From: an uncultured Bacteroidales bacterium | GTDB taxonomy: Bacteria; Bacteroidota; Bacteroidia; Bacteroidales; Bacteroidaceae | NCBI GenBank assembly: GCA_945833885.1 | Contig: CAMAFY010000006.1 | Span: 31,113 to 95,112, forward strand | Length of the DNA: 64,000 nt | Direction of reading: 5' to 3' | In this document: in pieces, positions 9,062-52,909 of the stretch | Layout: each line of letters begins with the position of its first letter | Numbering within the stretch: position 1 is the stretch's first letter | Translations under genes and position numbers: made by a program | Notes under the pieces: generated by a model | The model's database searches: none | Seen by the model: the letters and a program-made list of their open reading frames with translations, nothing else | Told to the model about the DNA's origin: nothing

Positions 9062-9158
9062 GGCTGCATACAATCCATAATGCAGCGATATAAAGCCAGA
9101 ATACAGCAATGTAGAAGGCTGAATGCAGCGATGTAAAGCCAGAATACGGCATTGATGG
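9062..9158. repeat. Degenerate 21-23 bp tandem repeat array downstream of infB
   Basis: Units CATAATGCAGCGATATAAAGCC / AGAATACAGCAATGTAGAAGGCT / GAATGCAGCGATGTAAAGCC / AGAATACGGCATTGATGG. Confidence 0.7.
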
Positions 9159-10228: not shown

Positions 10229-10424
10229 TTCCGCCGGCCCCGCTTTAGCATTCCGCCGGCCCCGCTTTAGCATTCCTGTCGGCATCGCTTTAGCATTCCG
10301 CCGGTACTGCTTTAGCATTCCTGCCGGTACTGCGCCGGAATACCGCCGATATCGCGGAGTTTACCGCGGATATGGGGGAAAGTTCCTGCCGATACCGTTG
10401 AAGTTCCTGCCGACATCGTGGAGA
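10229..10424. repeat. Tandem array, about nine units of 21-23 bp
   Basis: TTCCGCCGGCCCCGCTTTAGCA (x2), TTCCTGTCGGCATCGCTTTAGCA, TTCCGCCGGTACTGCTTTAGCA, then progressively diverged units to TTCCTGCCGACATCGTGGAGA. Confidence 0.85.
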
Positions 10425-11308: not shown

Positions 11309-11396
11309 CTTCTGCCGCACTTTTCCGCTCATTTTCCAGCACTTTCCCCCTCCTTTTCCCGCCCATTTCCGTCCTTTCGCCGGAAGTTCTCACCCC
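11309..11396. repeat. 22-bp tandem repeat array between purH and mreB
   Basis: CTTCTGCCGCACTTTTCCGCTC / ATTTTCCAGCACTTTCCCCCTC / CTTTTCCCGCCCATTTCCGTCC / TTTCGCCGGAAGTTCTCACCCC. Confidence 0.65.
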
Positions 11397-14554: not shown

Positions 14555-14642
14555 GAAACGTACGGAACTTCCGGCAGCAAACATCCGCATTTCTTGATGC
14601 GAAGTGCGGAACTTTCCGACGCAAACTTCCGAGGTTTCTTCC
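14555..14642. repeat. 22-bp tandem repeat array between mreD and mrdA
   Basis: Consecutive 22-mers GCAAACATCCGCATTTCTTGAT / GCGAAGTGCGGAACTTTCCGAC / GCAAACTTCCGAGGTTTCTTCC plus one diverged upstream unit. Confidence 0.75.
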
Positions 14643-27543: not shown

Positions 27544-27631
27544 AAACATCGGACTTCTTTGAGGCAAACATCCGTACTTTCGATGCAAAACATCCGTACT
27601 TTTGCTCAAAGAAGTCCGATGTTTTGCAACT
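27544..27631. repeat. 22-bp tandem repeat array upstream of the RM island
   Basis: AAACATCGGACTTCTTTGAGGC / AAACATCCGTACTTTCGATGCA / AAACATCCGTACTTTTGCTCAA / AGAAGTCCGATGTTTTGCAACT; outer units are mutually complementary. Confidence 0.75.
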
Positions 27632-28606: not shown

Positions 28607-28960
28607 CTAAAGGCAAGGTGAAACATAATAAATATATAAAGAAATGGCATGTGCATTTTGCATAATACCGCTTTTTTTTACCCAAACAGCCTGCTATTTT
28701 CTGAAATGCCAGAAGAAATCCGGACGATTATGTGGGGATAAAGGTAAGAAATTCCTATATTTGCGCACAGGACATCAGGGCAGAGCCTGTCCTCTTTCCT
28801 GCCGGTGTCCGTTCCGTTGCCGAACCTCTCGCATGAATGAATGTCCCGTGATAACAGTCAAAGGGTATTTCTTGTACCTTGCATCTTGTGCGTGGGGTGG
28901 TGATGATGCATGCAGAGAATATCCTATAATCATATTGTTCTACTAAAATCCCTTAGAGTT

Positions 28961-30217
28961 ATGAAAAGACATTTACCCTTACTTCTTTGTTTCGCCTGCC
29001 TTGGTGTGCAGGCCCAGGATTTTGCCTTCGATTTCTTCCGTCAGGTCCAGACCGGCAGCAGCAATGTCGTTGTATCGCCTATCAGTGCCGAAGTGGCCCT
29101 CTCCATGCTTGCCGAAGGAACGGAGGGCGAAGGGGGCAAGCAGATTCTTGATGCGCTGGGCGTTTCGTCTTCCGAAGAGCTCGGAAACCGCTATGCCGGC
29201 TTGCTTAAGGCCTTCCCCGGAATGGGGGAGAATGTGGTGTTTGAGAGCGCAAATTCCATATGGAGCAATATAGGTTTTGACATCAACGATGCCTATCGCC
29301 AGACGATTGGCGACATTTACGGCGCTGACGCCTTCTCTACCAACCTTTCTTCGGAGGAGGGAATAAAGGAGATTGACTTGTGGACATCCAAGAAGACACA
29401 TGGTATCATTCCTTCGCTCGGGCTCCAGCCTAAACCCGAGCTGCAAATGGCCTTGGTGAATACCATTTACCTCAAAGGAAGCTTTGCCTATCCTTTCGAT
29501 GAACAGTGCACCAGGGATGAGCGCTTCACCAATGCCAACGGCGATGTGGTGATGGTACCTACCATGACCACTTCGGATGTCCGTTACGCCCATCTTGAAG
29601 AACTGGGTTTCGATGCAGTGGACCTTCCGCTCGGTGTTGATGGGGAATGCACCACTTGCAGTCTGATTCTCTTCAAGCCCCTCCGCGAAGGTGCAACGCT
29701 TTCGTCCGAGGTGGTGGATGCCTATTTCAAGAATGCGAGTTTCAATGTTCCTGTCTTCCTGAAAATGCCACGGTTCGCCATTCACAATCAGGACTACAAT
29801 CTTAAGGAGATACTTCCGTCCTTGGGTATTACGGACATCTTCAGCCATGCCGATTTCAGCAAGATTGCTTCCGGTTTGGAGTATGTGAGCGAGATGAAGC
29901 AAAAGACCGATTTCAGTGTCGACGAGAACGGTATTGAGGGTGCTGCCGCAACCTTTATTGCATTGAGTAACGGTATGCCCCAAGAGTATAAGGAAGTGGC
30001 ACTCAATCACCCCTTCCAGTTTGCCGTTGCCGAACAAACTACAGGAGCCATCCTCTTTTTGGGTGCGGTCAACACCCTTGATGGCCCCAGCGCCATTTCC
30101 GAAATCGGTGCCGACAAGATGCCGGCAGCCCGTTGTTACGACCTGCAGGGCCGCAGTCTCGGCGGGCGACAGGGTAATGGCATCCTTATCGAAAACGGAC
30201 GAAAGGTACTGAAATAG
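28961..30217 (+). CDS. Secreted serpin-family protease inhibitor with C-terminal tail
   Basis: Signal peptide MKRHLPLLLCFACLGVQAQ; serpin fold motifs ANSIWSN, NTIYLKGSF, hinge DENGIEGAAATFIAL, HPFQFAVAEQTTGAILFLGAVN; tail YDLQGRSLGGRQGNGILIENGRKVLK. Confidence 0.92.
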   Translation: MKRHLPLLLCFACLGVQAQDFAFDFFRQVQTGSSNVVVSPISAEVALSMLAEGTEGEGGKQILDALGVSSSEELGNRYAGLLKAFPGMGENVVFESANSIWSNIGFDINDAYRQTIGDIYGADAFSTNLSSEEGIKEIDLWTSKKTHGIIPSLGLQPKPELQMALVNTIYLKGSFAYPFDEQCTRDERFTNANGDVVMVPTMTTSDVRYAHLEELGFDAVDLPLGVDGECTTCSLILFKPLREGATLSSEVVDAYFKNASFNVPVFLKMPRFAIHNQDYNLKEILPSLGITDIFSHADFSKIASGLEYVSEMKQKTDFSVDENGIEGAAATFIALSNGMPQEYKEVALNHPFQFAVAEQTTGAILFLGAVNTLDGPSAISEIGADKMPAARCYDLQGRSLGGRQGNGILIENGRKVLK

Positions 30218-37065: not shown

Positions 37066-37153
37066 GGAAACTCCCGATGTATCCGCTGGAAAGTTCCGAT
37101 GTTTCCGTCAAAAACTTCCGATGTTTCCACCGCGAACTTCCGATGTTTCCACC
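37066..37153. repeat. Exact-period 22-bp tandem repeat array (4 units)
   Basis: GGAAACTCCCGATGTATCCGCT / GGAAAGTTCCGATGTTTCCGTC / AAAAACTTCCGATGTTTCCACC / GCGAACTTCCGATGTTTCCACC. Confidence 0.85.
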
Positions 37154-39141: not shown

Positions 39142-41763
39142 ATGGCAAAAGAGGAACTCACCCCAATGATGAGGCAGTTTCAGGAGATGAAGCAGCAACA
39201 CCCCGATGCTATCCTGCTTTTCCGTTGTGGCGACTTCTATGAAACTTATAACGAGGATGCCGTGACCGCATCCCAGGTGCTGGGCATTACCCTTACGCGA
39301 CGCAACCAAAAGGGCGCGGCCAAGGACATCGAGATGGCAGGATTCCCCTATCATGCCCTCGAAACCTACCTGCCACGGTTGATTCGTTCGGGCTATCGTG
39401 TGGCCATTTGCGACCAACTCGAAGACCCTAAACTGACGAAAAAACTGGTAAAGCGCGGCATCACCGAACTGGTGACACCGGGTGTGGCGTTGGGCGACAA
39501 CGTCCTCAACAGCCGCGAGAGCAACTTTCTGGCGGCCGTACACTTCGGACAGGCGGAGATAGGCATTGCATTCCTCGACATCTCTACGGGAGAATTCCTC
39601 ACGGCACAGGGCGGTGTGGAGTATATCGACAAACTCATTACGGGCTTCGCACCGAAGGAAATGCTGGTGGAACGCGGACAAAAGGGCCGTTTCCAGCAAT
39701 TCTTCAACGGCAAGCAGTTCATCTTTGAACTTGAAGACTGGGCGTTTGCCGAGATTGCCGCACGGGACCGTGTGAGGCGGCAGTTCGGAGTAAAGAACCT
39801 CAAAGGTTTCGGCATCGAGCATCTTTCCTCGGCGGTCACCGCTGCCGGAGCCACGCTCGCCTACCTCGATATTACGCAACATACCCACACCGAACACATT
39901 GCTTCCATACGCCGGATTGAGGAGGAAAGTTATGTGCGCCTCGACAAGTTTACCATCAGAAATCTGGAGTTGGTGGCGTCGAACTACGTCGGTGAGGGGG
40001 CATCGCTCTGCCAAGTGCTCGACAAGACCCGCACTCCCATGGGCGCACGTCAACTGAAGCGCTGGATTCTCTTCCCACTTCGCAGTGTGACTGCCGTCAA
40101 TAACCGCCTCGACTGCGTAGAACATTTCTTCAGGTACCCTGAATTCCGCGAACTTTGCGACATGGAGTTGGGGAAAGTTGGCGACATGCAGCGTGTGGTC
40201 TCCAAGGTTTCGACGGCGCGCATCAATCCCCGCGAGATGGAACAGTTGCGCCTTGCTCTGGAAACCGTGGTGATCTTGAAGAACGCCTGCACCACCGCCG
40301 CCCAGCAGAGTATACGCAACATCGGTGAGAAACTGGACAACTGTACGGAACTCCGCCAACGAATCGAGCGCGAACTTTTGCCGAATCCCCCATTGATGGT
40401 TGCAAAAGGCGGCGTGATTGCCGCGGGTGTGAACGCCGAACTTGATGAATACCGCGAGATCCAGCGTTCCGGAAAGGATTATCTGCTGCACATTCAGCAA
40501 AGGGAGATTGAACGTACGGGCATCGCCAGCCTCAAAATCGGTTTCAACAACGTATTCGGCTACTACATTGAGGTGCGGAACACCTACCGCGATGCCGTTC
40601 CGAAGGAGTGGATCCGCAAACAAACCCTGGTGAATGCCGAGCGATACATCACCCAGGAGTTGAAGGAATACGAGGACAAGATCATGAGTGCCGAGGAGCG
40701 CATCACCATGCTTGAGGCCCGCCTCTACGCCAATCTTGTCGACGCTGCCATGGGTTGCATGAGGCAACTGCAGGAGAACGCGCAACTTCTTGCCGACCTC
40801 GACTGCTATTATGCCCTTGCTACGGTGGCGCGTGCGGGAAAATACGTCCGGCCTGTGGTGGATGAGAGCGACATCATCGACATTCGCGGCGGACGTCACC
40901 CCGTTATCGAGACCATGATGCCGGCCGGCGAGAGTTATGTGGCGAACGATGTGCAACTCGATACCACACATCAGCAGATTATCATCGTCACCGGACCGAA
41001 CATGGCCGGTAAATCCGCCCTGCTTCGTCAGACCGCCCTCATCACGCTTATGGCACAAATGGGTAGTTTCGTGCCTGCCGAGTCGGCACACATTGGTGTT
41101 GTCGACAAAATCTTCACACGTGTCGGCGCCAGCGACAACATCAGCGTGGGCGAATCTACGTTCATGGTGGAGATGTCTGAGGCAGCGAACATCATGAACA
41201 ACATCACTTCCCGCTCATTGGTCCTCTTTGACGAACTCGGACGCGGCACTTCCACCTACGATGGTATCTCCATTGCGTGGAGCATTGTGGAGCATCTCCA
41301 CGAAAATCCCCGCGCCCACGCCCGAACCCTCTTCGCTACGCACTACCATGAGTTGAACGAGATGGAGCATCTTTACCAGAGAATCAGGAATTTCAACGTC
41401 TCTGTGCTTGAGAAGGACGGCCGAATCGTCTTCCTCCGCAAACTTATGCCGGGAGGCTCGGAGCATTCCTTCGGTATTCATGTGGCGCGTCTGGCGGGAA
41501 TGCCCGGCTCCATCGTCAAGCGTGCTGAGGAAGTGTTGCGGCAGTTGGAGGCGGAAAAGCAGACCGAGGTCAAACGTGCCGACCCCACGGCACGGGATGG
41601 AGGCGCATCGGGGAGCGGCACACAGATGAGTTTCTTCCAACTGGATGACCCCGTGCTCTCGCAAATCCGTGACGAAATCCTCGGCCTCGACCTCAACAAT
41701 CTTACGCCGATTGAGTGTCTGAACAAGTTGTCGGACATCAGAAAAATCCTCACCGGGAAATAA
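39142..41763 (+). CDS. mutS: DNA mismatch repair protein MutS
   Basis: 873 aa; [60 protein letters not shown]. Confidence 0.98.
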
Positions 41764-41818: not shown

Positions 41819-42090
41819 GAATTAAATAAGTTCACGGTCGAAATTAAATTAGTTCGCGGTCGATATTAAATTAGTTCGCAGCCGATATAATACAGGTCTG
41901 CAGCCGATAATAATGGAAAGTGCAGACGGTATTCAATAAATCTGCGGGCAAAGTCAGATAAGCCTGCCCGTCTTTCCGCACGTATAAATTGATTCTTCCG
42001 TACGTATAAATTGATTCTTCCGTACGTAAAAAGCGGGTCTTCAGTACATCAAAACAGGGTTTCCCGTAAGTCTAAATCGAATATTCCGCA
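41819..42090. repeat. Longest 22-bp tandem array (about 12 units) downstream of mutS
   Basis: GAAATTAAATTAGTTCGCGGTC / GATATTAAATTAGTTCGCAGCC / GATATAATACAGGTCTGCAGCC / GATAATAATGGAAAGTGCAGAC ... TTCCGTACGTATAAATTGATTC / TTCCGTACGTAAAAAGCGGGTC / TTCAGTACATCAAAACAGGGTT / TCCCGTAAGTCTAAATCGAATA. Confidence 0.88.
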
Positions 42091-42105
42091 CACCATCCCC
42101 GTCCT

Positions 42106-42933
42106 ATGTCATCCTTTTTCTCTTTTCCGGTCAATCTTTTCTTGGGCTTTGGCATCCTGGTTCTGCTGTGGGTGGTGGAGTCGGAATGGGGACAACACCG
42201 CATTGTCCGCAGGCTGCGTAGTGCCGCCGTGGCGTGCTGGCTGCTCGGAATCACCGTGGTATGGAGCATCATCGGCGGACTCGTTCCACCGCAATGGGCC
42301 GTCGACGGCAGTCTTTGGCAGGCATTGGGCTTTGGCTTCTTCCCATCTTCATGGGGATTCAGGTTGCTCATCGGTTGCCTGCTTGCCCATCTTTCCCTCG
42401 TCATCATCCATCGTTTCCGCCTCCGACAGTACCGTCGCGATGCCTCCTTCCTGCTGCTTCACACCGGACTATGGTTGGCATTGGTTGCCGGTAGCGTCGG
42501 CACTTTTGACCGCGTAGAGGGCAGGGCGGTAGTCACAAGTGAGGCGGAATGCACCACCATGTTCCTGCGCGACGGCAGGATATTGCCGTTGGGCTATGGC
42601 ATTCATCTTGATGCTTTCGATGTGGAACGCAGTCCTGCCGATGGCAGTGTGGTGCAGTATACCGCCACCATCGTGGTGGACAGTGTCGGAAAGCACGACA
42701 TTTCCGTCAACAATCCCTTTGGAATCCGCTGGTATGAGGACCTCTATCTCACCGGTTTCGACCATCGTCATGATGTGGAAAGACAGCCCGTCGCCATCAT
42801 CATGGTGGTGCGCGAACCCTGGAAACCCGTCACCATGGCCGGCATTCTGTTGCTTGCCGCCGGTATGTTGTCTTATGCCTTCCGCCGTTCCTCCCGCATT
42901 TCCCGTCAGTCCCCTCATCATCCTCACCCATGA
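42106..42933 (+). CDS. ResB-like cytochrome c biogenesis protein
   Basis: 275 aa; membrane segments, ResB-like GSVGTFDRVEGRAVV region; overlaps the CcsA-like gene. Confidence 0.75.
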   Translation: MSSFFSFPVNLFLGFGILVLLWVVESEWGQHRIVRRLRSAAVACWLLGITVVWSIIGGLVPPQWAVDGSLWQALGFGFFPSSWGFRLLIGCLLAHLSLVIIHRFRLRQYRRDASFLLLHTGLWLALVAGSVGTFDRVEGRAVVTSEAECTTMFLRDGRILPLGYGIHLDAFDVERSPADGSVVQYTATIVVDSVGKHDISVNNPFGIRWYEDLYLTGFDHRHDVERQPVAIIMVVREPWKPVTMAGILLLAAGMLSYAFRRSSRISRQSPHHPHP

Positions 42934-45452: not shown

Positions 45453-45563
45453 CCTTCTTCCGCACCTCGTCGTCAAAACCTCGGAACTTTCGATGTAAAA
45501 GTTCCGCACTTTCCGCCTCAAACATCCGCACTTTCCGCCTCAAACTTCCGATGATTTTGAAGC
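45453..45563. repeat. 22-bp tandem repeat array
   Basis: AAAACCTCGGAACTTTCGATGT / AAAAGTTCCGCACTTTCCGCCTC / AAACATCCGCACTTTCCGCCTC / AAACTTCCGATGATTTTGAAGC. Confidence 0.82.
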
Positions 45564-49814: not shown

Positions 49815-49920
49815 GGAGTAGGGCATTCAGGCCACCGTCGCGGGGCATTTGGTCACCGTCGCGGGGCATTTGGTCACCGTCGTGCGGCATTCTGGTCACC
49901 GTCGCAGGGCATTATCGCCC
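49815..49920. repeat. 21-22 bp tandem repeat array
   Basis: GGAGTAGGGCATTCAGGCCACC / GTCGCGGGGCATTTGGTCACC x2 / GTCGTGCGGCATTCTGGTCACC / GTCGCAGGGCATTATCGCCC. Confidence 0.85.
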
Positions 49921-52799: not shown

Positions 52800-52909
52800 G
52801 ACGTGCGGAATGCTTCGCCCCGTAAAGTGCCGCATTCCGCTTCGTGAAGTGCCGCACTTTACCCCTCAAAGTTCCGCACTTTATCGTGAAAAGTTCGGCA
52901 CTTTTCCTC
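52800..52909. repeat. Exact-period 22-bp tandem repeat array (about 5 units)
   Basis: GTAAAGTGCCGCATTCCGCTTC / GTGAAGTGCCGCACTTTACCCC / TCAAAGTTCCGCACTTTATCGT / GAAAAGTTCGGCACTTTTCCTC; units contain AAAGTkCCGCACTTT dyads. Confidence 0.85.

Follow-up and report, generated by a model that had tools for sequence, protein, structure and literature searches.

Evenly spaced four-unit palindrome elements at 22-bp pitch in a Bacteroidales genome, and two abutting 22-bp arrays downstream of mutS

Results

The locus downstream of mutS

The window, a stretch of 64,000 nucleotides, belongs to an assembly of 3.1 Mb in 89 contigs which is 87% complete. The genus is one which we take to be Alloprevotella, and the mutS of the window shared 73% identity with its counterpart in Prevotellaceae bacterium Marseille-P2826 (G033), a member of the same genus. 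Gene calls were long ORFs only, and the features are collected in Table 1. The 342-bp gap between mutS and the ResB-like gene, whose product was 58% identical to its best match among 60 other genomes, was mostly occupied by a tandem array. The earlier note had placed a 22-bp array at 41819-42090 between mutS and cytochrome c biogenesis genes. Both points were borne out, as the period was exactly 22 bp, the array ran on to 42104 with 13 units, and the ResB-like gene was followed by a cytochrome c assembly gene. It was also correctly named the longest array, within the window; longer arrays lie elsewhere in the genome (e.g. L247:18665-18863 and L254:17560-17813), which like this one are outside the motif family described below (off-family). 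In an Rfam search, tRNA was the sole match. The window also carries a serpin (serine protease inhibitor) gene of this bacterial genome at 28910-30217 (Pfam PF00079, 3.7e-75).

The gap downstream of mutS was considered as a special site for such arrays. Among 80 Bacteroidales mutS loci, with gaps of at least 80 bp counted, arrays of 20-24 bp were found in 5 of 29 mutS-downstream gaps versus 33 of 325 other gaps, and this was no clear excess.

Table 1. Features of the window
Feature	Position	Strand	Remarks
mutS	39142..41763	+	upstream neighbour of the array; Pfam MutS domains I-V
ResB-like cytochrome c biogenesis gene	42106..42933	+	downstream neighbour of the array; Pfam ResB 1.6e-11
Array, block 1	41819..41972	.	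seven 22-bp units, consensus about ATATTAAATTAGTTCGCGGTCG; off-family
Array, block 2	41973..42104	.	five 22-bp units, consensus about TTCCGTACGTATAAATTGATTC, and a weak sixth
Four-unit phased palindrome element	14557..14637	.	22-bp pitch; score 66.4
Four-unit phased palindrome element	27544..27624	.	22-bp pitch; score 57.0; units 1 and 4 mutually reverse complementary
Four-unit phased palindrome element	37068..37148	.	22-bp pitch; score 71.3
Four-unit phased palindrome element	45476..45556	.	22-bp pitch; score 81.8
Four-unit phased palindrome element	52824..52904	.	22-bp pitch; score 77.0
Off-family array	9079-9154		one of four with periods 21, 22, 43 or 45
Off-family array	10235-10422		one of four with periods 21, 22, 43 or 45
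Off-family array	11310-11370		one of four with periods 21, 22, 43 or 45
Off-family array	49830-49891		one of four with periods 21, 22, 43 or 45

Two unrelated arrays at one period

The array was written as 22-bp rows over 41819-42104 and compared at all lags. Identity was 0.64 at a lag of 22 bp, 0.50 at 44, 0.45 at 66 and 0.39 at 88, with further decay at 110, and lags other than multiples of 22 gave the background of about 0.2-0.35. The copies were of constant length, head to tail and alike above chance, as in a minisatellite. TRF reported the array as separate rows, and shuffled sequence yielded zero tandem arrays.

The 13 × 13 matrix of unit identities fell into two blocks, units 1-7 and units 8-13, with similarity dropping to background at 41972/41973. 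Units 1-7 had 2-9 of 22 bases in common with units 8-12 (41973-42082), mostly 3-6, which was background, and unit 7 was identical to unit 8 at 3 of 22 positions. The two consensuses, compared in all rotations and on both strands, reached at best 12/22, the 95% point of the null being 13. The second block closed with a weak sixth unit, the thirteenth of the array, which ran up to the ResB-like start codon and matched the other units at 6-11 of 22 positions. The array is therefore two unrelated 22-bp arrays that abut.

Over the whole stretch adjacent units shared on average 13.5 of 22 bases (unit-order permutation P = 5e-5; Mantel P = 0.0004). Neighbours were most alike within block 1 (P = 0.003), and in block 2 this trend was weak (P = 0.08). 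The expectation that adjacent units resemble each other most thus holds for the stretch as a whole and for block 1, less so for block 2, and the unit-by-unit comparison proposed in the earlier note found a similarity gradient inside block 1 and none across the block boundary. The gradual change into a different-looking unit which had been read from the sequence was not confirmed; serial duplication with divergence at held length suits each block taken alone, block 1 more clearly than block 2, without a smooth transition between the two types.

A motif family at 22-bp pitch

A 22-bp period proved to characterise the genome at large and was no peculiarity of the array downstream of mutS. Altogether 864 kb of the genome was sampled, as 464 kb and a further, held-out 400 kb drawn after the motif had been fixed. 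All 46 intergenic tandem arrays in the 464 kb had a period of 21-23 or 43-45 bp, mostly 22 or 44, and 22 was also the commonest intergenic period across 80 other Bacteroidales loci. Many arrays of the source genome had the motif AAANNNC[C/G]GNNNTTT in common. A looser form of it occurred in 145 copies in the 464 kb versus 6 expected from shuffling, and the distance between paired motifs was 22, 44 or 66 bp with hardly any exceptions. The held-out 400 kb repeated these spacings, with 117 copies versus 4.6 expected, and two motifs in a row were counted across the whole genome 267 times at pitch 22 (control 2) and twice at pitch 21. Dyad symmetry was rejected as a universal trait of 22-bp arrays, being present in a subset only. 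Column-wise conservation inside arrays was strong initially, and much of it was lost after 44-bp higher-order arrays had been removed.

A four-unit scan at 22-bp pitch detected 35 elements on 380 contiguous kb, the identical set at thresholds of 20-35, and zero in shuffled sequence. The 864 kb contained 77 intergenic elements at strict 22-bp pitch, from which about 280 per chromosome were estimated by extrapolation; five were located in the window. The element was composed mostly of four 15-bp imperfect palindromes (AAANNNC-[C/G]-GNNNTTT), 22 bp or about two DNA turns apart. Exactly four units were present in 25-27 of the 35 elements on 380 kb and in 47 of the 77 on 864 kb, numbers to be read with the caveat that the scan window was itself four units long, although shorter and longer runs were counted and were fewer. 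Independent chaining of single sites gave a peak at three to four units. Training of the position weight matrix used the source genome with the window excluded, and scores in that genome are not independent; this training does not affect the exact-pattern counts or the spacing test.

Where the +22 neighbour retained at least 7 of the 8 fixed bases, the 7-bp spacer was 40% identical. Since motif and pitch were retained beside near-random spacers, duplication alone is not the explanation. This bears on a wholly neutral reading, in which everything consists of 22-bp minisatellites made by slippage and the period is merely inherited. Such a process suits the array downstream of mutS and the other off-family arrays, with their variable unit number, random spacing, looser period and 44-bp higher-order copies. 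It cannot yield randomised spacers next to a retained motif and pitch, nor the usual four units or the even spacing, so that it is already disfavoured for the motif-family elements and, as an account of all arrays, unlikely.

The left and right half-sites were identical in 10 cases versus 13.3 expected, and hence varied independently, a pattern that speaks for a putative protein recognising half-sites rather than for hairpins. Intrinsically curved DNA would need no specific protein, as A- and T-tracts recurring in phase every 11 bp or so would themselves bend the helix. Nucleoid structure has been connected with A-tracts that recur every 10-11 bp (PMC3940949), and the array units of the source genome had an 11-bp A/T component of 1.82 versus 1.04 in shuffled units. 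The component was absent in the arrays of other species (0.91 versus 1.05), so curvature was rejected as a general cause, and the conserved C-[C/G]-G core with restricted half-sites indicates sequence recognition. We consider the curvature reading extremely unlikely.

Flanks and the question of mobility

The 55 elements of exactly four units were flanked on either side by weaker in-phase sites and by nothing else that recurred: neither conserved outer ends nor terminal inverted repeats were found, and target-site duplications were absent at any offset. The centre base was mostly G in unit 1 (34:17) and mostly C in unit 4 (31:20; P = 0.01).

These results were weighed against a reading of the elements as mobile repeats of a non-autonomous kind (REP/BIME-, MITE- or solo-transposon-end-like) which a transposase had spread, with target immunity or selection against nearby copies producing the even spacing. 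Arrays of 22-bp sites recall the transposase-binding sites at the ends of Mu and Tn7. Hundreds of scattered intergenic copies, the overall mirror trend in the element (P = 0.01) and the like ends of some arrays in a relative, G064 (TCAAAGCATAGCTCTGA), as expected of copies of one repeat, speak for mobility. The lack of target-site duplications and of conserved outer ends speaks against it, as does the fact that what is retained is the 22-bp register and the motif, not a full-length sequence. Y1/RAYT transposase genes (PF01797) were uncorrelated with arrays: the closed genome G004, from the same genus, had two copies without 22-bp arrays in 400 kb, and G033 had none yet possessed arrays. A RAYT link was therefore rejected, and mobile repeats seem a somewhat unlikely account of the elements. 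A phage origin was also rejected, with 17 scattered matches only among 2.9 million viral contigs.

Even spacing along the chromosome

The spacing of elements, measured over 64 intervals on several contigs, had a mean of 10.2 kb with an SD of 4.0 kb (CV 0.39), or one element per 10-11 kb. Random placement in intergenic gaps gave a CV of 0.87 ± 0.10, and 0 of 4000 draws were as low as 0.39. Intervals shorter than 3 kb made up 1.6% of those observed versus 19.5% expected under gap-limited random placement. The distribution is thus non-random chromosome-wide (CV 0.39 versus 0.87), as for chromosome-organising sites. Even spacing is established for a single draft genome, this one, and G033 lends it support as a second. 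Large element-free intervals were considered as mobile islands, and this was rejected, as the two sampled through ten proteins contained housekeeping, envelope and glycosyltransferase genes.

With respect to gene orientation no clear bias was found (chi-square P = 0.41). The elements were not in excess in divergent or upstream regions and also lay between convergent genes, which is not what would be expected if they were operators of a global transcription regulator; even spacing would be unexpected too. Palindromic sites within intergenic DNA do fit operators, but on the whole we judge this explanation very unlikely.

Off-family arrays and the array downstream of mutS

The off-family arrays had 2-11 units, were mostly unrelated to each other and were unevenly spaced (CV 1.09 on contig C1), the array downstream of mutS included. 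Periods outside the 22/44 register were found in 14 of 57 off-family versus 1 of 55 family arrays (P = 0.0004), and length control in the four further off-family arrays of the window was looser than in family elements. On contig C1 (L113-L127, L241-L244) all 19 off-family 22-bp arrays were confined to the initial 192 kb and the following 188 kb lacked them; family elements ran evenly through both parts.

Compared with the motif family in any phase, block 1 of the array downstream of mutS gave no match (P = 0.46). Block 2 had CTTCCGTAC in common with the family, in phase, and this was borderline (P = 0.052). With block 1 unmatched and block 2 borderline, the array is not a four-unit phased palindrome element. 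Family elements flank it at 37.1 and 45.5 kb, which leaves no gap in their series at this place. It behaves like two adjacent, drifting off-family minisatellites with a period of 22 bp. Slippage or unequal exchange may lengthen both by 22 or 44 bp at a time while their units drift, and a descent of the two blocks from old elements whose motif was lost is possible.

Related elements in other Bacteroidales

A related element (AAAACGTCGGAGATTTT) was detected in G033 at 21-bp pitch, most often with four units, with 28 elements in about 520 kb and 0 in the shuffle; exact matching counted 23 cases at the 21-bp pitch and a single one at 22 bp. The spacing CV was 0.46, with P = 0.001 at the loosest threshold and 0.35 at the strictest. 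In other congeners the AAANNNC[C/G]GNNNTTT motif was almost absent. Its backward control, TTTNNNG[C/G]CNNNAAA, gave phased matches, 20 in G086 (pitch 21) and 9 in G012 (pitch 22), and these two genomes perhaps have a phased palindrome family of their own. The 400 kb of G004 contained no 22-bp arrays and a single array of period 45, and the genome carried 9/18-bp arrays. The system is accordingly either not universal in the genus or different in look.

The motif TCANNN[C/G]NNN[C/G]NNNTGA at pitch 22 was predicted from only two arrays of another genus. It gave 204 matches versus 0 in the control in G064 and 62 versus 0 in Phocaeicola oris, and with two mismatches allowed 639 versus 9 in G064. 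Many arrays of G064 (e.g. C2:9855, C2:155079 and C3:52519) had a nearly identical end unit, as if whole elements had been copied or the end unit had a special role. In G009, a species of 22-bp pitch, strong arrays of 43-bp period were observed at L160:1202 and L160:4281, apparently in non-coding DNA or short ORFs. With other phased motifs at a pitch of 21 or 22 bp in relatives, the architecture appears to be common to Bacteroidales relatives and the motif to be species-specific.

Discussion

Our work showed a constrained cis-element that has several sites at fixed pitch and recurs at even spacing, and separated it from the array downstream of mutS. Judged from sequence, the elements would be putative clusters of sites for a dimeric protein with a chromosome-scale role, and the array downstream of mutS would be separate, drifting minisatellites of the same pitch; we hold this reading with about even confidence. 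A putative dimeric, sequence-specific DNA-binding protein would occupy the sites of an element on one face of the helix, the proteins on one element would join cooperatively into one complex, and selection would maintain about one element per 10 kb. Selection for such a density suggests that the elements would help to organise, segregate or topologically partition the chromosome, and not to regulate particular genes. The mobile-repeat, regulatory, hairpin and curvature readings, each tested in part, fit less well.

The nearest published kind, by distribution and copy number as far as the available part of its description goes, is PINSR of Prevotella intermedia, reported there in 2015 as intergenic, clade-limited and present in 177-184 copies per genome, without protein-coding content or terminal inverted repeats and mostly absent from conjugative elements (PMC4755523). 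The elements resemble it in being dispersed, intergenic and non-coding, in lacking terminal inverted repeats and in comparable copy number. They differ, in a comparison by description only, in that the available part gives PINSR as one 188-bp consensus and is silent on any inner 22-bp pitch, on palindromic units and on even spacing. The density of PINSR, estimated from its 177-184 copies and the genome size, is about one per 15 kb. The dispersed intergenic elements here are of similar density, at one per 10-11 kb.

REP, BIME and REPIN sequences with RAYT (PMC6006769, PMC3733652) are likewise dispersed, species-specific intergenic palindromes in hundreds of copies. REP sequences, however, are hairpins tied to a Y1 transposase (PMC6006769, PMC3733652), whereas the elements here have half-sites without covariation, a fixed pitch and even spacing, and do not track Y1 genes. 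An assignment to REP/BIME was rejected, with no RAYT (Y1_Tnp) tie and no paired-arm stem (10 versus 13.3 expected), and so was one to MITEs, with neither target-site duplications nor conserved terminal inverted repeats. BrickBuilt of Porphyromonas gingivalis, a minisatellite inside a MITE (PMC4596501), also consists of intergenic tandem repeats and comes from the same order as the source genome, but as a MITE it has terminal repeats (PMC4596501), and none were found in the elements here.

The elements were also compared with sites of chromosome-associated proteins, from which they differ in grouping several sites per cluster, in numbering an estimated 280 per genome, in their even spacing and in a fast-changing motif. 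Sites such as matS (bound by MatP) and those of SlmA and Noc are palindromic sites of one protein spread over the chromosome; they are single sites, in tens, and regionally biased. Iterons and the 22-bp transposase-site arrays at Mu and Tn7 ends have several sites about two helical turns apart, which are directional and placed at one origin or transposon end. The sites here, by comparison, are mirror-symmetric, occur in hundreds of places and have no ends. In a literature search no description of phased, evenly spaced elements was found.

A wider proposal can be put forward more tentatively. Bacteroidales may possess a previously unrecognised system of helically phased multi-site palindrome clusters at intervals of about 10 kb. 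Motif and pitch (21 or 22 bp) would differ between species in step with a putative DNA-binding protein, and the clusters would set chromosome domains. The motif defines an exact bait for finding the putative binding protein, and G004 offers a natural contrast for tracing the one responsible. The element system may account for the frequency of 22-bp arrays in these genomes. Dispersed intergenic repeats are usually regarded as mobile debris; the fixed pitch, the usual four sites and the even spacing are hints of a structural role in one of the major groups of gut bacteria.
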